Shown here in pieces: positions 16,268-63,102 of a DNA stretch of 64,000 nt. Every line of letters begins with the position of its first letter. Position 1 is the first letter of the stretch. The translations under genes were made by a program, and so were the position numbers. The stretch is from assembly GCA_905221615.1 (NCBI GenBank), contig CAJNDT010003846.1:124001-188000 (forward strand). The letters run 5' to 3'. Source of the stretch: Symbiodinium sp. CCMP2592 (lineage: Eukaryota; Sar; Dinophyceae; Suessiales; Symbiodiniaceae). The notes under the pieces were generated by a model, which had not been told where the DNA came from, ran no database searches, and saw nothing but the letters and a program-made list of their open reading frames with translations.

Positions 16268-16292
16268 CCCTAAACCCTAAACCCTAAAACCC
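16268..16292. repeat. Interstitial telomere-like tract
   Basis: CCCTAAACCCTAAACCCTAA followed by AACCC: three heptamer units. Confidence 0.8.
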
Positions 16293-16556
16293 TTGCGTGT
16301 GTAGCAGGTTACAGCTTTGGGACCGAAGAAAAAGCACTTAAATGCCTTTCCCCTGCAATGTCACACGCAATTGCTGAGCCACTCCGTGAGCCCTATACAC
16401 TGTATACATATGCATGTGCAAAATACCCCTGCAACAAGCTCCGTGTTTTGGGACGAAGCAGCATCGGAGGACATTAATCCCTGAGCTGCTTCATCATACT
16501 TCTATGTATTGGGTCATAGGTTTGCCAGAATGATGCAGCCGCGCATGTGACCACAT

Positions 16557-27090: not shown

Positions 27091-27276
27091 CCCTTAACCC
27101 TAAACCCCCTAAGTCCTCAAACCCTAAACCCAGGGAATGGCCTCCTTTGGGATAGGAATTGTCAGAAGGCTCTGCAGCTGAAAGGGGAAAACCCTGGTTT
27201 TGGGAGACTCCAACCCTCAACCCTAAACCCCTAACCCTTAAACCCTAACCCCCAAAAACCCCTAATCCCTAAACCG
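27091..27276. repeat. Clustered telomere-like tracts
   Basis: Two degenerate CCCTAAA tracts, 27091-27132 and 27212-27276, about 80 bp apart. The second includes CCCTAAACCCCTAACCCTTA. Confidence 0.75.
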
Positions 27277-35906: not shown

Positions 35907-37122
35907 TTTTCCAACTTTGCTTTTTTATTATGGACTTCTTTCTTTCTTTCGCTCGTTCATTTCTTTTCTTTCGTTCTGTTGTTCTTTCTTTGTTCATCTC
36001 ATACTCCCTTCCTTTCTTTCTTGCTTTCCTTTCTGGTTTGATTTATTTCGTTCTTTCTTTGGTTCGTTCTTTCTTTCGTTCTTGCTTTCGTTCTTGCTTT
36101 CGTTTTTGCTTTCGTTCTTTCGTTCTCTCTCTCGTTCTATCTTTCTTTCTTTCTGTTTTCCTTGTTTTCGTCCTCTTTAGATACAGCAATTTTTGAATTT
36201 TTCCCAGGGGAAACACTGTTTTCATACGGATTCGTTTTCATTTCCTGAGGATTTGCTTGGTTTTTGGTTCGGGAAAACACGATTTTCCTACGGATTCCGT
36301 TGTATTTCCTTAAGTTTCTTTCTTTAGTTCTTGCTTTCGTTCTTCCTCTTGTTTTTGCTTTCGTTCTTTCGTTCTCTCTCTCGTTTTTTCTTTCTTTCTG
36401 TCTTTCTTTCTTGCTTTTTAGATACAGCAATTCTTGAATTTTTCCAAGGGAAAACACTGCTTTCCTAGGGATTTTCTTTCGTTTCCTAAGGATTTGCTTG
36501 GTTTTTCCTGGGGAAAACACGATTTTCCTAGGGATTCCGTGGTATTTCTCTAAGTTGTCAACTCTCTTTGGTTCTTTCCTTGTGTTTTCTTTTTTCTTTC
36601 CTTGTAGCTTTCTTTCTTTACTTAGTTCTCTATTTTTGTTTTCTTTCTTTACTTATAGCTTTCTTTATTTACTTATTTCTCTGTTTCTTGCATGGCTTTC
36701 TTTCTTTCTTTCGTTGTTTCTTTCTTTCTTTCTTTTGTTCTTTCTTTCTTTCGTTGTTTCTTTATTTCTTTATTTCGTTCTTTCTTTCGTTCTTTCTTTC
36801 TTCCTTGCTTTCTTTCTTCCTTTCTTTCTTTCGTTCTTTCTTTCTTTCCTTCTCTCTCTCTCTCTCTGTCTTTCGTTCCTTTTTCCCCTTCCTTTCGCTG
36901 ATACCCGTTTAATTTTTTTATCCTTATTTATTTTTTTGATCCTTATTTAATTTTGTTGATCCTTGTTTAATTTTTTTTTAACCCCTATCCCGCTTTACTG
37001 ACCTAAATTCGCCTCGGCTCGGCTTAGGGTTGAGGGCGTGACTTAAGGACTGATTTATGAGGCTCTCTATGCCGAAGAAAAAAGCCAAGAAGCCGAAAAG
37101 CCAAGAAGCCAAGAAGCCAGGG
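35907..37122. repeat. TTTC-rich block, copy 2 of a direct duplication
   Basis: Second copy of the 34115-35330 block, offset by about 1.79 kb. Small indels and substitutions distinguish the copies. Its right end overlaps the 3' end of the membrane/coiled-coil ORF on the minus strand. Confidence 0.9.
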
Positions 37123-38749
37123 AAGCCGAGAAGCCAAGCCAAGCGCGCACACAAGCCAAAAAAAAAAAATGCCCCCCCAAAAAAAATCCCAAAATAAATA
37201 CACCTCCAACCGGAAAAACCTGTCCATTCCAGATCAAGTTCACCATCTCCCCTGGGTTGAGACGGTTGAGATTTGCGGGGGAGGCCGTGTGCTGACCTGG
37301 TGTTGTCATTGGCGTCACCGGCGTCGTCGTCTGGGTTGCAGGTTGCACCACAGGTGGAAAAGAGGGTGCCGCATTGACCCCCGGCTGCAACAGCTGTACT
37401 TGTGGCGCAAGTCGCACCACAGGCGCTGGCACCGAAGTAGTCCGCGAACTCTGTGTTGCGGCTGGTTGTTGCCAGTGCCCTGGCGGTTGTGCTGGCGGCG
37501 GAAGCGGCGCCTCTTCAGCTGGCAACGTAGGTGCCGGTGCACTCGGAGGCGGTGCCTTTGGTCTGGCAGCAGCCAGTTTGTTGGTGGATTGCTCCACCAC
37601 CACCAGCTTGGAAAGGGCAGTCTCCATACGCCCCTCCACATACTGCACCTTCGTCTGCAGCTGTTCCATGTTCCGGTTCAGCGCCGACATCTCCGTCTGG
37701 AGATCCTTGACTGCCACAAGGAGGGTAGCAAAGTCGTTCCCTCCATCGCTGCCGCTGCTCTGCCGAGGGGTTTGAAGGGCGGTGTGTATGGAATCAAGCT
37801 TGCGGTGTGCATGCTGCAGTCCTTTCCCTATGTCAGTACCAACGGTACCAACCTGAGCGCCTATGGCGTTGAGGCGCCCGTTCTGGTCCCAGGTCGAGTC
37901 CTCGATCGCCTTGAAGGCCTTGAGGGCGTAGTCTTCCGTGGTCAGGAGGACTTCACGAAGAGCTCGGATGTCCTCCCCATGCTCCGGCAGCGGCCCCAAG
38001 GTGCTCTTGAGGCCATTCAGTATTGGCAGGACTTTAGCCTGCAAGGGCTCGAACGCTTCGCGCATAGCCGATTCGAGCTTGGCCTCCGTGAAGACACTGC
38101 TATCGAGGATCTTCTTGAGCGCAGCGACCGTAGAGCTAAGGTGCTCCTTACCCCGAGTGGCAGCAGCGTGAGCAGCATCCTCGACCCATAGCTTGACATC
38201 CTGGAGGCTCTGCTTGAGCTCTCGCAATGCCTCCACCTCAAGTTGTGACAACTGGGCATCAGCGGAGGCTGGAGCAGGGCGATCTTCATCCTCCACGGTA
38301 GAGGTAGGAGGCGGTGGGGTTGTGACTGCAGGCGGAGGCGCAGGAGCATCCGGCGCCTTGGAAGGTAACACTGGAGTGTCATCAGCGACCTCCGATGTCG
38401 TTCCCCCTTTTGGAGCAGAGTCGCCCCCACTCGTCTTCACTTCCTCCTCTTTGGGAGCCTCCGTCATGGAATCGGCCCCCATGGCAACCACAACAGGTGC
38501 GGGAATGCCTCGACGAAGGTAGCGCACCAGCTGGACGAGGTTGTACAAGACGAAGCCCAGCAAGAGGAGCCACGGGAGGCCGCCATTAGGGTTCGTGAGC
38601 CAAACCCCGGTCTCCCGCAGAGGGGAGGTAGGACTCAGGTTGTCGACCCCAACCACTCTTGCTGTCGAGCGCAGTGGGGGTCCCTCATCAAAGGAAACTT
38701 TATCGAAGGCATCCGAAAGAGCAGAGTCGGTGCCGCGGTTTTCCACCAT
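37067..38749 (-). CDS. ORF with membrane segment, Pro-rich linkers and coiled coil (LINE-flanking ORF6)
   Basis: The frame is open from about 38830; the first ATG is at 38749 (protein starting MVENRG), about 560 residues. Visible parts are an N-terminal region and then a hydrophobic segment (GLPWLLLLGFVLYNLVQLV) followed by RYLRR, a positive-inside membrane anchor. Next come a Pro/Ala-rich acidic linker, about 250 residues of heptad-like coiled coil (rich in L, E, K, A) and a second Pro/Gln-rich tail. The last 45 residues or so read into A-rich sequence and the AAGCC repeat, so the natural end may lie near 37200. No family is recognised. Architecture resembles the ORF at 40210-41130. It could be a structural (gag-like) protein of a retroelement or a cell protein. 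Confidence 0.55.
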   Translation of the reverse strand: MVENRGTDSALSDAFDKVSFDEGPPLRSTARVVGVDNLSPTSPLRETGVWLTNPNGGLPWLLLLGFVLYNLVQLVRYLRRGIPAPVVVAMGADSMTEAPKEEEVKTSGGDSAPKGGTTSEVADDTPVLPSKAPDAPAPPPAVTTPPPPTSTVEDEDRPAPASADAQLSQLEVEALRELKQSLQDVKLWVEDAAHAAATRGKEHLSSTVAALKKILDSSVFTEAKLESAMREAFEPLQAKVLPILNGLKSTLGPLPEHGEDIRALREVLLTTEDYALKAFKAIEDSTWDQNGRLNAIGAQVGTVGTDIGKGLQHAHRKLDSIHTALQTPRQSSGSDGGNDFATLLVAVKDLQTEMSALNRNMEQLQTKVQYVEGRMETALSKLVVVEQSTNKLAAARPKAPPPSAPAPTLPAEEAPLPPPAQPPGHWQQPAATQSSRTTSVPAPVVRLAPQVQLLQPGVNAAPSFPPVVQPATQTTTPVTPMTTPGQHTASPANLNRLNPGEMVNLIWNGQVFPVGGVFILGFFLGGHFFFLACVRAWLGFSASLASWLLGFSASWLFSSA

Positions 38750-38803
38750 GATGTCTAGGCGGAGGCAAAACGTCTGGCACCGGGCACAACTCTCGAGAGG
38801 CAA

Positions 38804-39591
38804 AGGCTCTAGCGGATGCGTTCATCACATGTGGCTTCCACAGACAGCTCAGCAGTGACATGCAGCCAAACTGTAAAGGAGTTTCCCTGTTCGTGAGAAT
38901 GCATGCGCAACGAAACTCGCAGCTAGGTATTCAAACGTCCTCTCGTATCCAGAACTAATTCCGGACCCAAACAGCCTCAGAAGTATACAAACCCCGAGTA
39001 ACAAGGACCCAAACACATCGAGTCGCAGCAATTGTTTTGCATGTACCATGACAAGGGTGACAGTCAGTTTCCAGGCTACTACGGCATGCGGCAACAGTGT
39101 CCTGAGGGACACGTCCTGCAGGAGGCACTCAACTTGTGCCACTAGCACAATCCATATGCTCCAAACTCGGCTGTAGTCCACGTGGCCGGCAGCTTTTGCA
39201 GAGCCAAGGTGCCCACATCTTTCCAGAAAAGAACCGAAAGTCAGACAAGCAGCAGCGAAAGGCGGTCGCCCTGTAGTCCAAAGTGCCCGACAATACCCAA
39301 CTCAATGGGCAGCCAAGTAGCAGTTTTGGTAGACACAATCCAGATCCTTCTGCAGAGGAAAGTCAAGGCGCCACGACGACTCAATGCAGCCATGGGGCAG
39401 TTAAGGGGCAAGCCCTCCTGTGAATTTGCGGCCCAACCGAACTGAAAGGCGAAGAGATAGGACGAGAAAAGCAAACCCAAATAAGCATGCATGAAAAGGT
39501 AGGGTTCGGGAAGGGACCGCAAAATCACACTTAAAAACAGTTCAAAGGGGCAAGTAGAGAACTCAGTACAAGGTGAAGAAGGGCCTAGGCT
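38804..39591. other. Spacer between LINE-flanking ORFs
   Basis: About 790 bp with only short frames (for example minus 39528-39241). It may contain introns or untranslated sequence of the neighbouring minus-strand ORFs. No domain seen. Confidence 0.45.
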
Positions 39592-40209: not shown

Positions 40210-41130
40210 TCAAGTCTCAGTTATTGTACAAGGATGACAGGCAAGGCCTTGTCGGCCTAACGCGGTCGTAGGATACGGGGCCTTACGAAGCCCAAGGGGG
40301 AGGCTCCGGCATCGAGGACGTATCCTGCGTCCCTGAGCGTATCTGTGCCCTGAGCACCGAAAGCTGCATGAGCACTTCAGACTGGAAGTGAGGATTGAGT
40401 GACTATTGAGTGCAGGCTGAGCACGCATCTCCTGGCGTACCCGATGAAGCCTCTCCTCAATCCCCTGAACAGCACCAAGCAGCCCCTGAGTGTCCATTTC
40501 AAGGCCTTCCCTGATCATGGACAGATGCCCATTAATCTCCTTGATATCCCCAGGCGTATCCGTCGTCACAGGTATCAGCGACTTGCGGATCAAAGCTTGC
40601 ACTTTGATCAGGTCACTCATCGTCTCACGCATGTCTTGGAGCTCCAAACCGAGGAGCCGAATTTGTTGTAGTAGTTCCGCTTTTGTTCGACTCCACTGTT
40701 CCACGAGGACAGGTTGCAAGAAACTTTGCGGCTCCACTACCACAGCTCTGCGGTGGTCTTCGAGCAGAAACAAGACTGCATGCTCCAAGCGTTGCAAGGC
40801 ACCACCCTGCGAAAGAATTGTAGCATCAAGTTTAGCTTCTAGGGAAGTCAGAGCGCTGCTTAGCCCCAGCAGTGTGTGATGGAACATCACCAGGAAGTCC
40901 CAAAGCATGCACCCTGCTCGGACCAGACCAGAGAGAATCACAACAGACAGTAGGAGTACCCACCCCCAATTCTCGGTGGGAAAGGTCCGACAACAGCAGG
41001 TGCTGCGAGGCCTCCATAATGTATCTTCAGGAGAGTCCAGCAGCGCTCCACATGGCGATGGGCAAGCGCTACAAGGGGCAGACCCAAAACGGCATCGAGT
41101 GGCCCAACAAGGAACTAGCCCAAACCAGTT
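40210..41130 (-). CDS. ORF with membrane segment and coiled coil (LINE-flanking ORF4)
   Basis: The frame is open from about 41130 without an early ATG; the first in-frame ATG codes for the M of GCMLWDFLVM, within or just after the hydrophobic segment. Upstream of that are a Cys-rich stretch (CPSPCG, CCCR) and a membrane-like segment (NWGWVLLLSVVILSGLV). About 150 residues of heptad-type coiled coil follow. The layout (membrane anchor then long coiled coil) matches the ORF at 37067-38749, so the two may be paralogues. The lack of an ATG suggests a spliced 5' exon. The C-terminal 40 residues are Cys/Arg-rich and may be past an unrecognised splice site. Function unknown. Confidence 0.42.
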   Translation of the reverse strand, partial: NWFGLVPCWATRCRFGSAPCSACPSPCGALLDSPEDTLWRPRSTCCCRTFPTENWGWVLLLSVVILSGLVRAGCMLWDFLVMFHHTLLGLSSALTSLEAKLDATILSQGGALQRLEHAVLFLLEDHRRAVVVEPQSFLQPVLVEQWSRTKAELLQQIRLLGLELQDMRETMSDLIKVQALIRKSLIPVTTDTPGDIKEINGHLSMIREGLEMDTQGLLGAVQGIEERLHRVRQEMRAQPALNSHSILTSSLKCSCSFRCSGHRYAQGRRIRPRCRSLPLGLRKAPYPTTALGRQGLACHPCTITET

Positions 41131-41509
41131 AGAACTCTAGAGTAAAGTGTACCCCAGGAGTCAGTTCCGTGGAGAAAGAAGCAGTTCCAGCAGCGCAAAT
41201 GGAAAAGGCAAGGAAAGTCAAGAGTCAGCAGCAGGCAGAAAGGGAGAGCCAGAGGATGGCAGCAAGCAGTATATTGCATACTGATCATGCCACTGAGTCA
41301 TGAGGAGGAGAGGGAGAAGCTATCAGCATCACTCATCCATCATCGTATCAGCAATCTCCTCATCACTGCTTTCCACACAAATGGAACGCGTGCAGAGGCC
41401 ATTTGCAGAGCTTCTGTGAGACATCGCAGCCTCGCAACGGCGCCCTCCAGGAGTGCTATCAACGCCGCAGGGACAAGATTGGGTCGGATGCAGCGTTGGC
41501 TTCAGGAAG

Positions 41510-41881
41510 TTATGATCCGGATCCTGTCACCCAGGCCGTCACGAAGTCGGGCGCCCAAGGCTGGCGTCTGTGTCCGTCAGCGATGCTCCTGGGTTCCGCA
41601 ATCACTAAGAGGCTGGCAATGTGTTCGCCTCTCAGCACGATGCGGTCATACACCAGGTTGAGGTCGCCTTCACGCGCGTCCTCAACGACCAGCCGGCCCC
41701 TGGCAAGGGAGGCCAGACGCCCCTCCAACAGCACGCCGCATGTGAGCGTGATGCGCAGTACAGAGCCGGCTTGTGGAGGATGCGACGGCCGCAAGCGCAC
41801 CTCCAGCGTGTCCTGCTGGTCGGGCGGGATTCCTTGCTGGTCCGTCACTCTGCCAACGGTGTTGGCGCCACTTCCAGGCAT
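41510..41881 (-). CDS. Sm/LSm-like domain ORF with ubiquitin-like N-terminal peptide (ORF3)
   Basis: ATG at 41881, 123 codons. Residues 14-23 read DQQGIPPDQQ, close to ubiquitin residues 32-41. Residues about 40-92 resemble an Sm fold: a strand (SVLRITLTCG) and V-L-L-E-G-R-L, in the style of the Sm1 motif G-x-x-x-x-G. Then come V-E-D-A and a short loop, and an Sm2-like VLRGEHIASLLVI. Sm/LSm proteins form RNA-binding rings in splicing and decay. Membership here is judged by eye. The tail after residue 95 has different character and may be intron read-through. It lies 468 bp past the LINE ORF2 stop, on the same strand. Confidence 0.4.
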   Translation of the reverse strand: MPGSGANTVGRVTDQQGIPPDQQDTLEVRLRPSHPPQAGSVLRITLTCGVLLEGRLASLARGRLVVEDAREGDLNLVYDRIVLRGEHIASLLVIAEPRSIADGHRRQPWAPDFVTAWVTGSGS

Positions 41882-42349
41882 ACAAAGGCCTCTGAAGTAA
41901 CAACCCTAGCAGGTCCGAAGACCACCCTAAACCGAAAAGAACCCCCAACAACAGACAGCCGAAGAAGGGTAACGTTGAAAAGCTTGGTCCCTGCGTCACT
42001 GTAGACGAGCATAAGGAGCGAACCCCTAGCAGGCTCGGCTCTGCACACTTGGGAGGCAGGAGCCTTCCAGTAAGGTAGATAGCGACTCAAGTAAAAATGC
42101 TTCTTGCAGCAAGCGTCTTTTGCAAAGCCCTTCACTGCGGGAGCGCTTCGGCACCAACAGGGAAACGAACCCTGCAGAAAGACATGACCCCCAAAACTAA
42201 GGAGAGCGCACGAGCTCATCGGCCCTTGCAGCACTAAACCCCAGTCACACTTTTGCCAGGCCCATCACTGCTTGGGAGCGCTTCGGCACTTACGCAGAAA
42301 TGAAGCCTACACACAAATAAAAAAAAACATCACCCCAAAATCCCAGGAC
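41882..42349 (-). other. Region 3' of LINE ORF2
   Basis: Probable LINE 3' untranslated region or flank. Two degenerate copies of a piece containing GGGAGCGCTTCGGCAC lie at about 42118-42175 and 42250-42310. No A-tail is evident on the minus strand, so the 3' boundary of the element is not defined. A minus frame at 41845-42234 is not supported as a gene. Confidence 0.45.
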
Positions 42350-45300
42350 CTATCCTTTATGCAAAATGTGCAGCGGCATCCGGAAGTGCCAGGTTTTGAA
42401 AGGAGAACTATGCATTCTGGCCCATGTGAGAAAAGCATGAACTTTGTCTGGGCACCTCAAAATGGGGCGCATGGAAAGGCTCTCCGCCTGCTTTGGCAAG
42501 CCGAACTGCGTCAAATGAGAGCACAGCACACGTGTAGCAGGATGGGCCAAGAGACCTTCCTGAAATTGCTTGGGCAAGGCTCTTACGGCCGCCGCGAATG
42601 AGCAAGCGTAATCGGAAGCTGTGGACAAAGGCCTCAGTCGGCCTGCTTTGCGGTTGACAAGACTAGCACCCGTAAAAGCGTAAAAATCGCAGAACAGTTC
42701 CAGCATCGTGATTTTTCCTCCCGGTGACCAACTTAACTTATGAAAGTACTCACAGCAGGCATCGAGAGTTTCGGATGGAAAGTGCCAACTGTAATTGGCC
42801 TGTGCCCTGGAAAATCTCAGGCCTTCAAAAGCATGGACGCTGGTGTCCCCGCAGGGCTTCCAAGCAAAATGAGGCACTTCTCTTTTACACTGTCGTATGT
42901 CCTCAGCAGACGGAACATACTCCAGCAAATCTTCACATGCCCCTCTGGCAGCGAGAGACAAGGACACGGACGAACTGGAGTGGGACGTCACAGGCTCGCC
43001 CCGGGTGTGCTCGCCATCAGAAAGGTCAGACGTCTCCTCGGGAACGAGAGCTTTCAGGGCTTTCCACCGCTTGTTTATGACGGCGACATTGTGAAGCTGC
43101 CGCTTGATGCAGATTTCACAATCCCGATCCCAACTCTTTCGAATATCCTTACACCCAAGAAGTTCAGCAGCGCGGCGGGCAGCCTTTTTTGCACCGGCAT
43201 CAGCTGCCTCATTTCCAGCCAAGTCCTGAGACGAGATGACCCCGTTTGCAACGTCTCTGACCGTACAGTGCCCAGGGATCCACTGAGCTTGAACCTCACA
43301 ACCAAGATCCCGCAGAGAGCGCACAGTGCTCGTGATCCTGCGCCAGAGGTCATAGTGCGCCTCGTTCACTCCCAATCCCTCCGGATACTTTGTGATTAAA
43401 AGGAAGCGGTCAACAACCCATTTGCAATCGCACTTTAGAATGACAGGCATACGAGGGGCAGGACTGTCGCGTGCCACGACTTCCAGTTTTCCCAGTGCGT
43501 GTGTAAGAGCATACACTTCAGCTCGATCCGATCCTTGCTGCAAGCCTGGGACGACGCAATTAAAGCTGCGGCAAGGCGAACCGCGGAAAAAGGCTACATA
43601 AGCTGCACCGGCAAACGTAGCACTCTGACAGCTGTTGTCCAAAGTGCTGCCATCCGTGTGTATGACCAAGGGCATTGCGGGCCACCTATTCCTATTAACC
43701 CTATCATCCCAAGACAAGAGACCCTGGCGACGGGTCAAACACCACTCAGGTTCTGTGAGGACAGAGAGGCACAGGAAAGCCGAGGTCTGAAAGCGTGGAT
43801 CCTGTGAGCAGTCAGGGGGAAGGAGCACGCTTGGATGAGTAGGCGACCATGCAGGGCACTGGAAGACATGAGGCGGGGTCTCACGGACCTCCCTGCAACC
43901 TGGACAGCAGTCATCATCCCAAATGTTGGCCGCTTTGAGGCGATCACCAGTACGAGTGCTACCACACAGAACTTGCTGGATCCACCCGCGTAACAAGGCA
44001 GGTGAAGGCGATTCGTACTCCAAGCTAGCAGAGCCTGAGATCACTTTAGAGAGAACTTGGTCAGAGGATCTGAGCAAGTGGGACACAACTTCCGAATGGG
44101 GATGCAAACCCAACAACCCTTCAGTATCTTTTCGCTTAGCTACCTTTTGGAGGAGCATATAGCGCAAGGATCTTCGCAGCTCGTGTTGAAATAAGGCTTG
44201 GGGCCAGAGGAAAGAGATATTGACATCATTGGGTCTGGACCACGACCACAGATCGCTGTCAACCAACTCCCACCCTAAGTACCCGAGCATCTCACGAATG
44301 CAGTAAAAAGGCCCTGGCATGGTCGGGTCAGGACCGGCGAGAAAATCCCGCAACAGTTGTGCCACCAACGGGTCCGAAAGCGCCGCCTGCCTGACAAGGG
44401 ACAGAACATTGAAGGCAACCGCCGACTGTGGATCGACTCGGTGCGTGCGGAAAGCAAAGATCATCAGCAGGTTGGGTTCCTTAAGCTTTTGCTTAGTAGA
44501 GAAGATCACACCCAGGATGCTACTTCTAAGGCTTCTAAGCAAAGTTTCACTGGGGCAGGCAATGACAACGCCATGCATGATCGAAGGCAAAATCAAACTT
44601 TCAACCACGGCAGTCTTATAAGTTTTAGGCCCGGGCAGCTGTGCGATCTTTCGCAATCTTAAAAATTGTTTTTCAAAACGGCTTTCCGAAGCCTTCTTAT
44701 AACCCTTAAAAGAAGTGGGGATGGGAATTCCCAAAGACGTAGGATGCAGCTCGACAGCGCCCTCCGGCGGGAGCAAAGCACGTGCAGCCTGTCTGGCCGG
44801 AACGGATGTCCCAAAACCACGACATTTCTTAGGGTTTAAACGTTGCCCCGAAAGGGTATCGAACTTACGAAATTCAAGGCACGCTTGCTCCAAGTGTTTG
44901 GCATCCCTTAACTTGGCCCTCAGCTTGCTGTCATCGAGGAAAAAGGACACCCCCACCGAAGGCAACGTGTTTGAAACTCTTCGAGCAAGGATTGCGAAAA
45001 CAGCATTGCAACACAGGACCGAGATGGGGCAACCCTGAAGCAGGGATTGCGAAGACCACCAATTACCGAAGCTTTGACCAAAGCGAAAGACCCGCTGCAA
45101 AGTAGTGTATCTCGCCTGCAAGGCCCTCACGAAACCCAGATCAAGCCCTAACGCAATGAGGACGGGACAAACAAAATCAGCTTTGAACATGTCAAAACAT
45201 TTCTGGCGATCGTGCGTGAGCCCCACGATGGCCTCCCCTTTTTCCATAGCAGCCTGAAGCTCGAGTGCTGGGAGTAGCTCGGAAGTAAGGACATTCCTAC

Positions 45301-47599
45301 CCTTTAGGCCACCGTGAAGCTGCGGCGGCACCACCTGCATCAGCCAAGGCATTGCTTGCCGGAAGCGAACAGACAAATACACCGAAAGCCAAACTGAAGC
45401 CAAGGAAATCGGGCGCGTGCCGCCGTCCGGCTTCGGAAGCAGAACGGTGAATGCATGAGACAAACCTGCAGGCCACTGAGGAGCTGTAGACGCCTCAAGC
45501 ACCTGCATAATGCTCAAGAACTTTTCTAAGATTATGTCTGGGACACATTGCAATTCAAACATGGACCACCCGTCAGGGCCACCTTTCGTAGAAGAGCGTT
45601 TCGCTGCCAACGCTTTTTTGAACTCTTGGACAGTAGGGGCAGGCAAAGCCCCGTCTGCACGAGCTTGCCCAACTTCATGTGCGTACTCACGTAAGAAAAG
45701 GTCAGCCGGAGGGACAGGACCCTGCAAGAAAGGACTCCAAGATTCGATGAGCAACTCATGCACGCGCGATGGCTCGGTGGCGAAACCTTCCCCGTCAGGA
45801 ACAGTGGGAGCAGGCGGGACAAACACTGTTGCATTAGCCCACTGAGTCACGTGCTTTTGACTAGATTGTAGCCACTCCCGCCATTTCACGATGCGTTCTT
45901 GCTTCAGATCCCGCGTCCATCGATCAATGCCGTTTTGAGCCAGGCCTAGCAACTGTTTCCAGGAGAACAACTGTTTGACTACACTCCACTCAGTATTCGT
46001 CAGATCGTGCCAAATCTGGTTTTGTACTGTAGTAAGGCAAGCTTCCCCGGGCTCGTCCCTACCGTTAGCCAAGGCTTTAAGGCCGCATAGGAGAGCAGCA
46101 GCCTTTTTGATGCGCTTCGTCACAACACATCCCTGAAAAGTCTTAACAACACGAGGGCCGTAGCGAAACTTGGGCAAAAGACCCCTCGGGTTGGAATCGC
46201 GACCCGTCGGCACCTCAAACAGCCGGCATAGAGACTCCGTGGCAGCTTCGCAAACCTGTGACCAAGCGGTTTCGCAATCTCCGTTTGCAAGCGCGCTATC
46301 AAAAACATGGCTATGGCACGACCACACCTGTGAACCAATGTCGTCCTGACAAGTGTCATCGCACTTAGCGGACTGTTCGCAGAGGGATTTACGCGGAACA
46401 ATAACCCAGTCGAAAGCTCGAAAGGCCTTCGCATGCATGGTAGCCGTAACAGCCCTATGTTGGCCAATGAAGCGTGAAGTGGATAAACAAGATGTGGCGA
46501 CAGTACCCGCAGCCGTGGAGTTGACCAGCAAGTGATCAATACGGGAAGTCCCTACTGAGTCACCGGCCCAACCTGCGGCAGAGTATGAATGTCGCGTTGA
46601 ATCCACACCCGAAGCCTCATTAGCAAGTACCCCGAACTCACCAGTACGAAGGACGCTTTGCAGCACCTCAGATTGATGACAATCAGTGTTGGCGTCCATT
46701 CCCACAACAACGGGTGCACCACCAAGAGAGCGACCGTGCTCAAAAACCTCTGACAGCAACTTTTCGTTAGCTGCAAAGTTGGTGTTAAGTCTCCCTTTGG
46801 AGGTACACCCCGAAACCCCATAAACGTTAAAAACATGAAGGAACCTGTTGCCTCTCCCAATGGCAATGCCCGCATGTAGGAACCTGCCTGCTTTGTGCAT
46901 TTGTCTCAGCGCCTGCGGAGGCTCAAAGAGTTGACACGACAGAGAATGCCGCACGACAATCGCAACACCCCCTTGCTTAGTAGTATTATGTACCTGCCCA
47001 TCCTTTCGATGAGCCACTGCATCCGTGGGATGCCCCCAAAGAACCTTGAAGCCTTGCTCCTGAAAATCTTTCGCCAATCGGACTTGTGCGGATTGGTTTA
47101 CCCTGGTTTCTTGGACGATAAAAACATCAAAAGGCCACTGCAAAAGCTCGTGCATGTGCTTTTCGAGAGAAGTGACGTTGATGGAACACAGCCTAATGTC
47201 GGGAACATGTTTGAAGCCCATGGCCCTCGAGCGCATAAGCACAGCAGGAACGAAAAGGGAAGCAGCCCTCTGGCATAACGAATGCTCCATAGTGCACTGG
47301 AGTTCCCCACAAAGCTTGCAAGCATCAGGCGACTCGTGAGGCCGACCTGCTAATTGGATTTGACCGCGCGGTGTCACGGTCGATGGCGACGAGCAACCAC
47401 ACTCAACACGATTGCACCATATGCAAGCAGCACGCGCACTGCAGTGAGCAGAATCGCGAGCTAATTGACAACCTGCCGGCGATGTTTTACTTCGGAGGCG
47501 AACGCGAGCGCTCGCTGTGCTGGCTTCTCTGGGACTGCAAGAGACGAAAAATGTCAGCGAACTGCTTGTTGGATTCCTGGGCAGACTCCTTGATCTGGC
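42350..47599 (-). CDS. LINE ORF2: endonuclease, reverse transcriptase, RNase H
   Basis: The frame is open from 47599 with the first ATG only at 47290; GTG at 47377 is used here as residue 1 (1675 residues). In order: zinc-binding cysteines (CKLC...C...H...C, 20-35, and more upstream); APE endonuclease with QET (89-91), GMDANTD (226-232) and RIDH (279-282); reverse transcriptase with PISLAS (656-661), motif [10 protein letters not shown] (721-729), motif B QGCPIS (781-786) and motif C FLDD (813-816); a CCHC finger (C1158, C1161, H1170, C1174); RNase H with TDGS (1241), AEVYA (1286), CDCKW (D1317), PGHC (H1370) and GNEAAD (D1393). About 280 further residues follow, of unknown role. All catalytic residues are present. 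The protein nicks the target, primes reverse transcription there and degrades the RNA strand. The frame overlaps ORF1 by 113 bases in +1 phase. Confidence 0.9.
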
Positions 47600-49595
47600 T
47601 CATGATTTGCTGGTGCTGTGCTTCCTGCGTCGTTGCGATTCTGGTGATGTCTCCGCCCTGGCGCGTAACAACCGCCTCGAGTTGGCCGAATCTGGCCTCA
47701 TTGACTTGCTGCTGCTTTTGCACAGCTGCCGCTACGAAATCCTGCATTTCACGTTTCAACTGCTCAGACCGATCATTCAGGGGACCTGGCATGGCGACAT
47801 CCGCCGATGGGGCCGGTGAGCACTGGGGCACAAACTTTGACGATGTGGCCTTGGCCTGTGTGGCTGGTTTCTGCTTAGGGGTAATGCTCACTAAGGCCTG
47901 GTTGATGGACACTGTTTCAGCGGAGGGCTCAGTGGCGGAACCTACAACCGCAACTAAACCTCCTTCCCTATGAGCCGGGCGCAAGCTTACAACCTTTACT
48001 TCCCACCCCCACCCTTTCAAGGCATCGCGAAGGGTTGACGCTGTCGTGTCAGCCGGCAGGCCTCGGACGAAGTAAAACCTGCTACACTGGATCTCCCAAC
48101 CTGGCTTGAGAGCATAGCCAGGATTGATTTCGCTTAGCAAAGCTTTCAGCTCAGACGGCTTTGTGACCAGGCCCAAGCGCGTTTTCACACAAGCCAGTCC
48201 TACGACAACATGTGAATGTTTCTGTTGTGCCAACTGGGCATCCTGCATCGTCGCACCTTCTGGCAACCAAGCAACTGCCTCATCAGGAGATTCTTCAATC
48301 TTACGACGAAGGAAAACCCCACACTCGCCGCATGAAGCCCTTAGCTTGCGATACGTAGCCTCCTTGATGCGGCACGTGGCCTGGAAAGCATCAGCATCCC
48401 AGGTAGGTTTCGGTAGCCATCTCTTGGTGAACCAGTTCTCAGGCGTATCAACGCAGTCTTCAAACAAAAGGCTCTTTAAGGTCTTAATGGGGTTTTCCCA
48501 GAGACGCTTCCAATCAGACTCAGACATAAAGTGCTTGGACACATGGATAACAACCTCAATGTTTGCAGGCGCTTCCATCTTGACAATGGGTGTATCTTTC
48601 AACTGCACCTTGACATCTCCTAGCTGAGCAATCCAACCCTTGACACGGTGAATACCCCCTTGCTTGTCTGCTGCCATGCACGTGATGCTTTCCGTTGACA
48701 TGGGGAGAGCTGGCGCCTCAGGAGAAAGCACCACGACTGCAAGTGCTGATAGCGACCACTTGTCAGAGACACCTGCTAACAGACTGGAGGCCGTATTGGC
48801 ATCCATGGCTGCAATCCCAACTGCATTACGCTTCACGTCTTTTGGCAACAGAACGGTGAGCGACTCACCTACAGCTGATACCCAATCCTGCGCACGCAAG
48901 CACACTTCAACGGACCTGGCCTTTTTGGATAGACCTCGAGCGGCTTTATCGACTACATCGTGACTGCTGCTTGAAGTGGTTACTGCGTTGGACCAGGGAT
49001 CAGATCTATCCCACGGGTCGGGCGATTTAGTGTGAGGCTGCAGAGCCTTCTGCTTCGCATGAAACACTCGGGATTCTCCGGGAGTTAGAATGCGAAACTT
49101 TGCCACGTTAGCCAACTGCTTAATCCCACGCCACTGCTCTACCGGCTCGGGAATCTGCAACATACTCTCTAGCGAGTCTGACGCAACACTTGCCCTAAGC
49201 AGTTTGACATGCTCACTCAGCACTTCCTTAGGGACCCCGTGTTCAAGCAGAATGGCTTCAACAGAAGAGCCGTTACCGAAAAGCGCATGCATCAGTCGGT
49301 TGCGGGAAGCTGCAAGCACGTGCAGCAGGCCACTAGAAACCCCTAGAAAAAACCCAAAGAAACCCGGACAAACGAAGGGAAGAAACACAACTTTGTCCAA
49401 GATTGCATCCAAGCTTGCATCGCGACACTGCTCGAGGATCTTCGGCTGCGGGTACCGGGACGACTGACACGAATCCTCTGCCCGGCGGATTCCTTCCTGG
49501 TCCTGGATCTTGGCCTTCACGCTCTCGATGGTGTCAGACGCCTCCACTTCCAGTGTGATGGTTCTGCCGGTCAGCGTCTTGACAAAGATCTGCAT
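47487..49595 (-). CDS. LINE ORF1 with truncated N-terminal ubiquitin
   Basis: ATG at 49595, 702 residues. Residues 1-36 are ubiquitin with a few substitutions (K11R, P19A, N25S, K33Q), ending after E-G-I at the close of the helix, before the Pro-Pro and the C-terminal Gly-Gly. Without Gly75-Gly76 it cannot be cleaved off as a normal ubiquitin fusion. Then come a hydrophobic segment (about 69-97), a long middle region, an RRM-like piece (about 505-560, [12 protein letters not shown] with TLRDAL helix) and a coiled coil (about 620-690), ending in an S/R-rich tail. RRM plus coiled coil fits the nucleic-acid-chaperone role of LINE ORF1 proteins, which coat the element RNA. ORF2 begins in the +1 frame before this stop. 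The alternative is that the ubiquitin part belongs to a host gene into which the LINE inserted. Confidence 0.8.
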
Positions 49596-49597
49596 GG

Positions 49598-49648
49598 CTG
49601 CGCAAAAATGGCTGCTCCCTGCTTGCTGCTTGAGCCATCGCCATTTTG
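49598..49648 (-). promoter_or_regulatory. Spliced-leader-like relics in the ORF1 leader
   Basis: Reading the minus strand toward the ORF1 ATG: TGGCTCAAG (49637-49629), the last nine bases of the dinoflagellate SL, then AGCCATTTTTGCGCAG (49613-49598), close to the SL middle and end (AGCCATTTTGGCTCAAG), two bases before the ATG. Tandem partial SLs are known at the 5' ends of recycled dinoflagellate mRNAs. The matches are short and imperfect. Confidence 0.35.
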
Positions 49649-49649
49649 T

Positions 49650-49685
49650 CTAGGGTTTAAGGGTTTAGGGTTTAGGGGGTTTAGA
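49650..49685. repeat. Telomere-like tract at the LINE 5' end
   Basis: GGGTTTAAGGGTTTAGGGTT followed by TAGGGGGTTTAG: five imperfect TTTAGGG units. They begin about 55 bases upstream of the ORF1 ATG. Confidence 0.8.
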
Positions 49686-49785
49686 TCTAGAGACGGGTCT
49701 TGTCTAAGGAATGTTTAAGGGGATCTTGAAGGTACGGGCATACACTGGTGCTTTCAGTTAGAACGTAGGCCTGAACCATAATATG

Positions 49786-51196: not shown

Positions 51197-52138
51197 TCAG
51201 GCAGCTTTCCCAGCCTTCACGACGGGGACGAGGCCACCGGCCACCGCCGCCATGATGGCCGCGGGGATCAGTGCTGCCTGTGCGCCCCATGCAGGGTGCG
51301 TCTCCATGGCCGCCACGCCACCCAGGCCGAAGAAGAAGATGCCGGAGCCGAAGAGGAAGACCTTCAGCAGGGTGGGCGGCTCGGCACCGTCCGTCTGCGC
51401 CCTGGCCCACAAGCCCAGGCCCACACCGAAGTCGGTCAAATAGCCAGTGAAGTGCGTCGTGCAAACGGGAAGGGAGCTGCATCGACGAGTGATGCCATTC
51501 TGGATGCCCTGCGAGAAGGCCCACAAGAACAGGCACTCGGAGGCATCATCATTGGCAATGCCGGTTTGGGCCTTGCAGTAGTGCACCAGGCAACCGAACA
51601 TGACGGCGAAGGCTGCTGCCAACAGGTTGGGCGAGTAGCGCCCCTGGTAGATGGCCTCCTGGTCACACTTGCTGAAGCCGGCCACAAAAGATCCGGTGGC
51701 AAAGGAGAGCATCAGGTGGAAGAACTTGATGCCACCGTTCATGATGAGACGTCCGGTGTGGCTGGTGTTGCCCGTCTGGTGGGACACGGTCATGCCCATG
51801 TCGATGATGGCCAGGGCGTTCACGAAGCCAGACGTGAAGCAGAGAATGTTGGAGATCATGACGAAGCTGCTGTAGTCGGGGCGCTTCTCCGCTGGACCCG
51901 CTGCTGCCGGCTGTGCTTGTTCGGTGTATGCAAAGGCACCGCAGGCGATCATCAGCGCCAAAGAAACGAACAGGGCGTGGTCGGCGATGGTCCTGGCCAT
52001 GCCGGATGACTCCTGTACGACTGGCTCTGTGAAGGCATGCTGGCTTTGGAAGCTCCACAGCGCGCAGACGCCAAGTGCCAGGAGTGCAGCGCCGCGCACG
52101 CGGCTGCTCCTGGCACGGGTGCTCAACATGGCCGGCAT
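51197..52138 (-). CDS. DUF1275/YoaK-like multi-pass membrane protein, unit A
   Basis: 313 residues from ATG at 52138. The N-terminus is basic with a hydrophobic stretch (17-31), as in a signal or transit peptide. About seven membrane segments follow (53-72, 92-112, 136-155, 171-187, 202-215, 258-277, 286-306). DUF1275 hallmarks are SGFVNALAII (103-112), VSHQTGN (118-124), GIQNGITR (211-218) and TTHFTGYLTDFG (227-238). The family is widespread in bacteria and its transport role is not settled, so function is unknown here. The frame has no intron. A pyrimidine-rich tract and CAG about 27 bases upstream of the ATG would serve as a trans-splice acceptor. The beta-tubulin stop of the same unit is 391 bp upstream. 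Confidence 0.85.
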   Translation of the reverse strand: MPAMLSTRARSSRVRGAALLALGVCALWSFQSQHAFTEPVVQESSGMARTIADHALFVSLALMIACGAFAYTEQAQPAAAGPAEKRPDYSSFVMISNILCFTSGFVNALAIIDMGMTVSHQTGNTSHTGRLIMNGGIKFFHLMLSFATGSFVAGFSKCDQEAIYQGRYSPNLLAAAFAVMFGCLVHYCKAQTGIANDDASECLFLWAFSQGIQNGITRRCSSLPVCTTHFTGYLTDFGVGLGLWARAQTDGAEPPTLLKVFLFGSGIFFFGLGGVAAMETHPAWGAQAALIPAAIMAAVAGGLVPVVKAGKAA

Positions 52139-52164
52139 GATGGAGGCTCGACGCCGCCTGCGGG

Positions 52165-52199
52165 CTGCAAAGGGGAAACAGCGAGCAAAATGCTGCGGA
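52165..52199 (-). promoter_or_regulatory. Putative trans-splice acceptor and SL-like sequence
   Basis: The minus strand reads TCCGCAGCATTTTGCTC (52199-52183), similar to the dinoflagellate SL start with two single-base gaps, then GTTTCCCCTTTGCAG (ending at 52165), a polypyrimidine tract with AG. The latter is a plausible SL addition site for the YoaK-like mRNA. The SL likeness may be chance. Confidence 0.35.
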
Positions 52200-52529
52200 T
52201 CATCGGCACAGAGGGAAACCGAATAGCAATCTCGACTCTAAGAGATGTGTTGGACGAGTCACAAGTCACAAGTCTGTATAACGATGCAGCAGTGTGCGCA
52301 TTTTATCGTCGGCTGCTTTCGAAGCGCAACTGGGACGCCGAACACGTGGCATACCACGCGAGGCTGCAACCGGGGGAGAGTGGGGCGATGGAGTACATGA
52401 CTGCGGGTCTATCGGGGATTGTGGGACTGAAAACAAGTCTTGGAAGGCCTGCAAGACACCGATGGCTTCCGAAAAGTTTCGGGAAACCGTCGAAGCCGAA
52501 TTATTGTCGCTTGGACGAAAAGGTTCGGC

Positions 52530-56015
<3,486 letters not shown>

Positions 56016-56529: not shown

Positions 56530-57471
56530 TCAAGCAGCTTTCCCAGCCTTCACGACAGGGATGAGGCCACCGGCCACCGCCGCCATGATGGCCGCGGGGA
56601 TCAGTGCTGCCTGTGCGCCCCACGCAGGGTGCGTCTCCATGGCCGCCACGCCACCAAGACCGAAGAAGAAGATGCCGGAGCCGAAGAGGAAGACCTTCAG
56701 CAGGGTGGGCGGCTCGGCACCGTCCGTCTGCGCCCGGGCCCACAAGCCCAGGCCCACACCGAAGTCGGTCAAATAGCCAGTGAAGTGCGTCGTGCAAACG
56801 GGAAGGGAGCTGCATCGACGAGTGATGCCATTCTGGATGCCCTGCGAGAAGGCCCACAAGAACAGGCACTCGGAGGCATCATCATTGGCAATGCCGGCTT
56901 GGGCCTTGCAGTAGTGCACCAGGCAACCGAACATGACGGCGAAGGCTGCTGCCAACAGGTTGGGCGAGTAGCGCCCCTGGTAGATGGCCTCCTGGTCACA
57001 CTTGCTGAAGCCGGCCACAAAAGATCCGGTGGCAAAGGAGAGCATCAGGTGGAAGAACTTGATGCCACCGTTCATGATGAGACGTCCGGTGTGGCTGGTG
57101 TTGCCCGTCTGGTGGGACACGGTCATGCCCATGTCGATGATGGCCAGGGCGTTCACGAAGCCAGACGTGAAGCAGAGAATGTTGGAGATCATGACGAAGC
57201 TGCTGTAGTCGGGGCGCTTCTCCGCTGGACCCGCTGCTGCCGGCTGTGCTTGTTCGGTGTACGCAAAGGCACCGCAGGCGATCATCAGCGCCAAAGAAAC
57301 GAACAGGGCGTGGTCGGCGATGGTCCTGGCCATGCCGGATGACTCCTGTACGACTGGTTCGCTGAAGGCATGCTGGCTTTGGAAGCTCCACAGCGCGCAG
57401 ACGCCAAGTGCCAGGAGCGCAGCACCGCGCACGCGGCTGCTCCTGGCACGGGTGCTCAACATGGCCGGCAT
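56530..57471 (-). CDS. DUF1275/YoaK-like multi-pass membrane protein, unit B
   Basis: 313 residues, intact, from ATG at 57471. It differs from the unit A protein at only three positions I can see (T37S, T192A, V304I). All family motifs are retained. It sits in the same place in the repeat unit, 391 bp 3' of the unit B tubulin stop. Confidence 0.85.
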   Translation of the reverse strand: MPAMLSTRARSSRVRGAALLALGVCALWSFQSQHAFSEPVVQESSGMARTIADHALFVSLALMIACGAFAYTEQAQPAAAGPAEKRPDYSSFVMISNILCFTSGFVNALAIIDMGMTVSHQTGNTSHTGRLIMNGGIKFFHLMLSFATGSFVAGFSKCDQEAIYQGRYSPNLLAAAFAVMFGCLVHYCKAQAGIANDDASECLFLWAFSQGIQNGITRRCSSLPVCTTHFTGYLTDFGVGLGLWARAQTDGAEPPTLLKVFLFGSGIFFFGLGGVAAMETHPAWGAQAALIPAAIMAAVAGGLIPVVKAGKAA

Positions 57472-57862
57472 GATGGAGGCTCGACGCCGCCTGCGGGCTG
57501 CAAAGGGGAAACAGCGAGCAAAATGCTGCGGATCATCGGCACAGCGGGAATCCGAACAGCAATCTCGACTCTAAGAGATGTGTTGGACGAGTCACAAGTC
57601 ACAAGTCAGTATAACGACGCAGCAGTGTGCGCATTTTATCGTCGGCTGCTTTCGAAGCGCAACTGGGACGCCGAACACGTGGCATACCACGCGAGGCTGC
57701 AACTGGGGGAGAGTGGGGCGATGGAGTACATGACTGCGGGTCTATCGGGGATTGTGGGACTGAACACAAGTCTTGGAAGGCCTGCAAGACACCGATGGCT
57801 TCCGAAAAGTTTCGGGAAACCGTCGAAGCCGAATTATTGTCGTTTGGACGAAAACGTTCGGC

Positions 57863-61776: not shown

Positions 61777-62711
61777 TTATTTCCCACCCTTCACGACAGG
61801 GACGAGGCCACCGGCCACCGCCGCCATGATGGCCGCGGGGATCAATGCTGCCTGTGCGCCCCACGCAGGGTGCGTCTCCATGGCCGCCACGCCACCCAGG
61901 CCGAAGAAGAAGATGCCGGAGCCGAAGAGGAAGACCTTCAGCAGGGTGGGCGGCTCGGCACCGTCCGTCTGCGCCCTGGCCCACAAGCCGAGGCCCACAC
62001 CGAAGTCGGTCAAATAGCCGGTGAAGTGCGTCGTGCAAACGGGAAGGGAGCTGCATCGACGAGTGATGCCATTCTGGATGCCCTGCGAGAAGGCCCACAA
62101 GAACAGGCACTCGGAGGCATCACCATTGGCAATGCCAGCTTGGGCCTTGCAGTAGTGCACCAGGCAACCGAACATGACGGCGAAGGCTGCTGCCAACAGG
62201 TTGGGCGAGTAGCGCCCCTGGTAGATGGCCTCCTGGTCACACTTGCTGATGCCGGCCACAAAAGATCCGGTGGCAAAGGAGAGCATCAGGTGGAAGAACT
62301 TGATGCCACCGTTCATGATGAGACGTCCGGTGTGGCTGGTGTTGCCGTCTGGTGGGACACGGTCATGCCCATGTCGATGATGGCCAGGGCGTTCACGAAG
62401 CCAGACGTGAAGCAGAGAATGTTGGAGATCATGACGAAGCTGCTGTAGTCGGGGCGCTTCTCCGCTGGACCCGCTGCTGCCGGCTGTGCTTGTTCGGTGT
62501 ACGCAAAGGCACCGCAGGCGATCATCAGCGCCAAAGAAACGAACAGGGCGTGGTCGGCGATGGTCCTGGCCATGCCGGATGACTCCTGTACGACTGGTTC
62601 GCTGAAGGCATGCTGGCTTTGGAAGCTCCACAGCGCGCAGACGCCAAGTGCCAGGAGCGCAGCGCCGCGCACGCGGCTGCTCCTGGCACGGGTGCTCAAC
62701 ATGGCCGGCAT
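61777..62711 (-). pseudogene. YoaK-like gene, unit C, with a one-base deletion
   Basis: It starts normally at ATG 62711 and matches units A and B, but one C is missing at about 62345 (GTTGCCGTC where the others have GTTGCCCGTC), just after the VSHQT motif. The frame shifts and stops at 62313 after 132 residues. The rest of the gene stays intact in the other frame down to a stop at 61777. The C-terminus also differs (VVKGGK in place of VVKAGKAA). It is either a freshly broken copy or an assembly/base-calling error. Confidence 0.75.
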
Positions 62712-63102
62712 GATGGAGGCTCGACGCCGCCTGCGGGCTGCAAAGGGGAAACAGCGAGCAAAATGCTGCGGATCATCGGCACAGCGGGAATCCGAACAGC
62801 AATCTCGACTCTAAGAGATGTGTTGGACGAGTCACAAGTCACAAGTCAGTATAACGACGCAGCAGTGTGCGCATTTTATCGTCGGCTGCTTTCGAAGCGC
62901 AACTGGGACGCCGAACACGTGGCATACCACGCGAGGCTGCAACTGGGGGAGAGTGGGGCGATGGAGTACATGACTGCGGGTCTATCCGGGATTTTGGGAC
63001 TGAACACAAGTCTTGGAAGGCCTGCAAGACACCGATGGCTTCCGAAAAGTTTTGGGAAACCGTCGAAGCCGAATTATTGTCGCTTGGACGAAGAGGTTCG
63101 GC

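Follow-up and report, generated by a model that had tools for sequence, protein, structure and literature searches.

How does the first open reading frame of a LINE retrotransposon come to begin with half of a ubiquitin? The initial annotation of this locus, which lies within 64,000 nucleotides of Symbiodinium sp. CCMP2592 DNA (the window), had described a LINE ORF1 of 702 codons whose first 36 codons are those of ubiquitin, with few substitutions, and run in frame and without a stop into the rest of ORF1. It had offered two origins for this arrangement: either the LINE captured a host 5′ exon, or it landed in a ubiquitin gene. We confirm the description, with four substitutions and on the minus strand, and also the 702-codon frame, which lies upstream of an ORF2 that encodes endonuclease, reverse transcriptase (RT), and RNase H. 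As to the origin, the answer turns on the sequence beyond the 3′ end of the LINE.

The ubiquitin head and the LINE that follows it

The head and the element are composed of the following features.

49488–49595, minus strand: host coding sequence for ubiquitin residues 1–36 (K11R, P19A, N25S, K33Q), from tblastn and Pfam
41844–49486, minus strand: LINE, 7,643 bp between the repeats, both ends placed from one copy, no poly(A) seen
49293–49486, minus strand: LINE leader, up to the first in-element ATG; the ubiquitin frame is stop-free and the other two have stops
47487–49292, minus strand: ORF1 from the first in-element ATG, 601 codons and a stop, with a long C-terminal helix in a low-confidence model
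42350–47599, minus strand: ORF2 open frame, stop to stop, with endonuclease, RT with FLDD, and RNase H; candidate starts at 47290 and 47236

The translation of 49595–49488 is identical to ubiquitin at 32 of 36 residues. It is found by tblastn at E = 1.7e-17 when the 64-kb window is searched and by Pfam as PF00240 (E = 2.7e-9, 37.1 bits against a cut-off of 25.4), and the 60 listed of its 296 PDB matches are all ubiquitins or ubiquitin-derived. The likeness breaks off after residue I36, and the frame from the ATG at 49595 continues to the stop at 47487. A full 76-residue ubiquitin domain ending in LRGG is absent; the 5′ side of the LINE carries residues 1–36 and the 3′ side carries PPDQQ, and no second half of ubiquitin was found above chance in the 64-kb window. 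At 10.9 kb the ubiquitin piece has a DNA match of higher score, which is short and gapped and was taken as chance; the 1.1-kb stretch around it has stops in all three frames.

The element behind the head resembles APE-type LINEs (LINE-1-like non-LTR retrotransposons) in having two ORFs, in combining endonuclease, RT, and RNase H in ORF2, and in being flanked by a short direct repeat. The endonuclease is of the APE type (PF03372, E = 9.5e-10), the RNase H domain is recognized by Pfam, and the RT is matched by phmmer to chains of LINE-1 ORF2p structures (E = 6e-9), with an FLDD motif, picked by eye, at 44944; no Pfam RT model is among the matches up to E = 10. The element is unlike APE-type LINEs in that ORF1 matches none of the known ORF1 families in Pfam and in that no poly(A) or simple-repeat tail is visible before the 3′ copy of the flanking repeat, where the putative 3′ end reads ...GGCAGAGTGAC. 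Some LINEs lack such a tail. The single-sequence fold of ORF1 is poor, with a mean pLDDT of 43.6. Both ORFs are open throughout, so the insertion looks young. The 3′ UTR contains a 38-nt direct repeat (42139–42176 and 42274–42311, 79% alike, starts 135 bp apart), the second copy of which adjoins the ORF2 stop.

No further copies of the LINE were seen within the window outside 41.4–49.85 kb, and tblastx at E = 0.01 returned nothing there; the matches that do occur outside this interval are mostly to TTTAGGG-like repeats from upstream of the ATG, together with two short stretches. No relatives of ORF2 (42353–47200) or ORF1 (47490–49292) were found in viral contigs, and none of the RT region (44700–46300) in a collection of genome contigs, both being poor places to look for a eukaryotic LINE.

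The passage from ubiquitin into ORF1 runs through the leader, 49486–49293, and the only one of its three frames that is open is that of ORF1, so that any host ATG entering in this frame would read into ORF1. A stop-free leader would thus let the host ATG read straight through by a chance of about one in three, and the in-frame fusion may be no more than luck of that order. ORF1 has an in-frame ATG of its own at 49292. A pyrimidine-rich stretch of the leader ending in TTTTTTCTAG is a candidate spliced-leader acceptor, in which case ORF1 could normally start at 49292; it is also possible that the LINE is truncated at its 5′ end and has lost its own start. Were the host promoter and a spliced leader still active, the locus could produce a ubiquitin(1–36)–ORF1 fusion protein; ORF1 could be started from its own ATG at 49292 as well. 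Scoring of codon usage was tried as a way to locate the start of real ORF1 coding and was uninformative because the 18 codons that precede the ubiquitin ATG had scores similar to those of ORF1.

The far flank, the junction repeat, and the host frame

Four features at the junctions bear on how the LINE and ubiquitin came together.

41813–41863, minus strand: second ubiquitin-like stretch, aligned to residues 25–41 (tblastn, phmmer), reading NTVGRVTDQQGIPPDQQ
49487–49503, minus strand: upstream copy of a 17-bp repeat, GGACCAGGAAGGAATCC, read as a target-site duplication
41827–41843, minus strand: downstream copy of the repeat, GGACCAGCAAGGAATCC, with one mismatch
41510–41826, minus strand: rest of the host frame, consisting of PPDQQ (first base from the repeat), 100 codons unlike ubiquitin, and a stop

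The stretch at 41863–41813 is the second-best ubiquitin match in the window (E = 0.003, whole window searched). It lies on the same strand as the head, 7.6 kb from it and ∼0.5 kb past the ORF2 stop, and ends ...DQQGIPPDQQ. This piece, just past the presumed 3′ end of the LINE, was missing from the initial annotation. When the 3′ flank alone was compared with the PDB by phmmer at E up to 10, 28 of the 29 listed matches were ubiquitins, ubiquitin variants, or ubiquitin-derived affilins, and the 29th was a deoxyribonuclease; the matched query residues ran from 4–22 to 4–28, and the low E-values came from multi-ubiquitin chains, single-domain ubiquitins reaching only E 0.9–1.7.

Ubiquitin sequence is therefore present on both sides of the LINE, and the two sides share the direct repeat GGACCAG(G/C)AAGGAATCC (minus-strand reading), identical at 16 of 17 positions. 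This is the best ungapped direct repeat between 49.2–50.6 kb and 40.5–42.4 kb; the six other matches listed between the two flanks are of 10–13 bases each. The 240- and 260-bp stretches at the junctions contain one such repeat pair, compared with none in 287 size-matched random pairs; of 300 draws, 13 had been set aside because their stretches lay near each other or both fell within the tandem array that starts above 50.5 kb. Between kilobase-long stretches a score of this height is not rare: among random pairs at least five score 14 or more, as counted in the best 20 of at most 60, and one of these comes from the tandem array. The weight of the 17-bp repeat lies in its position: joining the flanks there restores ubiquitin 1–41 in frame, and the resulting ORF has 141 codons. 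That 104 codons past the junction are free of stops is weak evidence by itself, with a chance of 0.087.

Weak ubiquitin-like similarity also continues, with gaps, beyond the repeat and inside the presumed 3′ end of the LINE (CTGGAAGTGG...ACACC...GTGA). Depending on the scoring scheme, 7 of 4993 or 28 of 4997 genomic stretches reach it, with draws that hit the spacer between the strands left out, as do 10 or 13 of 5000 shuffles.

After residue 41 the joined frame leaves ubiquitin. The 100 codons that follow are not ubiquitin, and the remainder of the host frame at 41510–41826 has no Pfam match up to E = 0.1, so the LINE did not enter an ordinary ubiquitin gene. The target could be a ubiquitin copy that has decayed, or some gene to which a ubiquitin start became fused. 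Upstream of its ATG lie two possible relics of a spliced leader, both assigned tentatively.

49599–49613, minus strand: spliced-leader-like AGCCATTTTTGCGCA just 5′ of the ATG, 13/15 to DinoSL
49629–49636, minus strand: GGCTCAAG, the last 8 bases of DinoSL

The matches to DinoSL upstream of the ATG are degenerate, with no exact CCATTTTGGCTCAAG. Four other places in the window, on both strands, score as well as or better than AGCCATTTTTGCGCA, including a plus-strand place no more than 80 bases away, and the 8-mer GGCTCAAG occurs nine times on the two strands, 49629–49636 included. Leader-like stretches before the ATG and a joined host frame of 141 codons that is intronless are features shared with the dinoflagellate spliced-leader-relic retrogenes reported in PMC12014239, from which this locus differs in the degeneracy of its relic (13/15) and its tentative assignment. 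The host gene is possibly a retrogene. TTTAGGG/CCCTAAA-like short repeats lie at 49648–49698, some dozens of bases before the ubiquitin ATG, and at about ten other places, such as 16268–16293 and 27221–27247. These repeats, the leader-like motifs, and the GC-AG intron of a nearby tubulin-like gene by themselves point to a dinoflagellate, perhaps one of the Symbiodinium group.

Probable insertion and the alternatives to it

We consider it probable, at roughly 0.72, that a complete-looking LINE of 7.6 kb, with ORF1, ORF2, and a 3′ UTR, entered a small, ubiquitin-headed host gene by target-primed reverse transcription. The product of this gene would have begun with ubiquitin residues 1–41. Entry of the LINE would have duplicated about 17 bp at codons 31–37, and the empty host site would read ...KIQDQ(E/Q)GIPPDQQDTLEVRL... 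with one GGACCAG(G/C)AAGGAATCC. The host ATG and 36 codons would now precede the LINE leader, and the rest of the host gene would lie past the 3′ end of the LINE. Of the two origins offered in the initial annotation, landing of the LINE in a ubiquitin gene gains support from GIPPDQQ, in frame beyond the LINE, and from the 16/17 repeat. Capture of a 5′ exon is not supported, short of a formal refutation, and ORF1 has an in-frame ATG of its own within the LINE, at 49292. With the far flank in view, an apparent host-gene capture by a LINE can be read as an insertion.

Against a simple insertion stand the mismatch in the repeat, although the open ORFs suggest a young insertion, and the ubiquitin-like similarity past the repeat, which would not be expected from a short target-site duplication; in addition, there is no poly(A) at the presumed 3′ end, and the ends of the LINE are placed from one copy. 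The mismatch and the similarity past the repeat are compatible with two ubiquitin copies or with an older, longer duplication.

In the first of these cases, the LINE would lie between two diverged ubiquitin copies, or replace part of them, in a decayed polyubiquitin-like locus, and the 17-bp repeat would be shared ubiquitin coding sequence, with no target-site duplication. Two copies would account for the repeat mismatch and for a gapped similarity of the whole flank that spans ubiquitin codons ∼15–36, beyond the 17 bp (reached by 2 of 1000 and 0 of 1000 shuffles under two scorings), and we note that an unrelated place at 10.5–11.4 kb on the minus strand outscores the flank in the same kind of scan. 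However, past the repeat the two flanks align with gaps and in part out of frame, and a break at residue 36 with PPDQQ in frame on the opposite side is exactly the outcome of a simple insertion. We therefore regard two diverged copies as unlikely.

The chance is slimmer that template switching, RNA ligation, trans-splicing, or 5′ transduction joined the start of a ubiquitin mRNA (leader, ATG, and 36 codons) to the LINE and that this 5′ chimera was inserted as one unit. The ubiquitin piece, which has leader-like motifs ahead of its ATG, is indeed a sense 5′ mRNA end that directly precedes a long LINE, an arrangement like that of the LINE-1/mRNA chimeras reported in PMC13174262, where 17 are given for human and 15 of these map to the beginnings of transcripts. 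What separates the present locus from them as reported is that the ubiquitin frame here continues beyond the LINE: a chimera leaves the next ubiquitin residues, in frame past the 3′ end, unexplained, whereas insertion explains both sides. Furthermore, no repeat around the unit as a whole was conspicuous; besides the 17-bp repeat, the six matches listed between the flanks are of 10–13 bases.

A very doubtful proposal, again from the sequence, is that the LINE is tolerated as a 7.6-kb GA-AG intron, that an unspliced, host-promoted spliced-leader transcript would make ubiquitin(1–36)–ORF1, and that the LINE belongs to a lineage that repeatedly enters ubiquitin. GA-AG pairs at two positions of the repeat (k = 7 and 11) would excise the LINE and restore the ubiquitin frame; the candidate pairs are GAAG/GAATCC...CAAG/GAAT and CCAG/GAAGGA...CCAG/CAAG, and no clear pyrimidine tract is seen by eye on the 3′ side of the LINE. 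If the LINE is spliced as an intron, the weak ubiquitin-like similarity at its 3′ end would be a hint of a lineage repeatedly entering ubiquitin sequences. GC or GA-AG introns are reported as 25–74% in Symbiodiniaceae (PMC11453091). Introners, introns created by transposable elements, are reported to take their 5′ splice site from the duplication in Symbiodinium microadriaticum (PMC9860276), and the insertion-site repeats here likewise offer possible splice pairs. In contrast, mobility as DNA elements is presumed for most introners (PMC9860276), and here the element is a 7.6-kb LINE whose splicing is putative. Transcripts that showed splicing at the repeat, or an ORF1 headed by ubiquitin, would connect the insertion of LINEs to the gain of introns where genomes tolerate GA-AG introns.

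We found no report of a LINE ORF1 headed by ubiquitin in the literature, within partial journal coverage. The least probable explanation, that ubiquitin is a fixed, functional N-terminus of ORF1 in this LINE family, fits the in-frame, stop-free reading and the open leader frame but is opposed by the further ubiquitin residues in the 3′ flank, by the lack of other copies seen within the window, and by the fact that half a ubiquitin cannot form a complete fold. A single LINE with open ORFs and both junctions is useful for defining the ends of the element and its target.

Neighboring features of the window

Downstream of the LINE and on the same (minus) strand are two long open frames, 37067–38821 and 40210–41136, whose Pfam matches are all below the cut-offs, several of them to coiled-coil families. 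On the other side of the locus, tandem units of about 5.2–5.3 kb each carry a DUF1275-like protein on the minus strand (51197–52237, 56530–57570, and 61777–62772). The first copy was identified by Pfam (PF06912, E = 1.2e-21) and the other copies by the likeness of their frames, that of the third (61777–62772) being disrupted. Downstream in at least the first two units is a piece that we take to be the C-terminus of beta-tubulin, and the tubulin-like gene contains a GC-AG intron at 52664–52777 (minus strand) with AG/GC at both borders.
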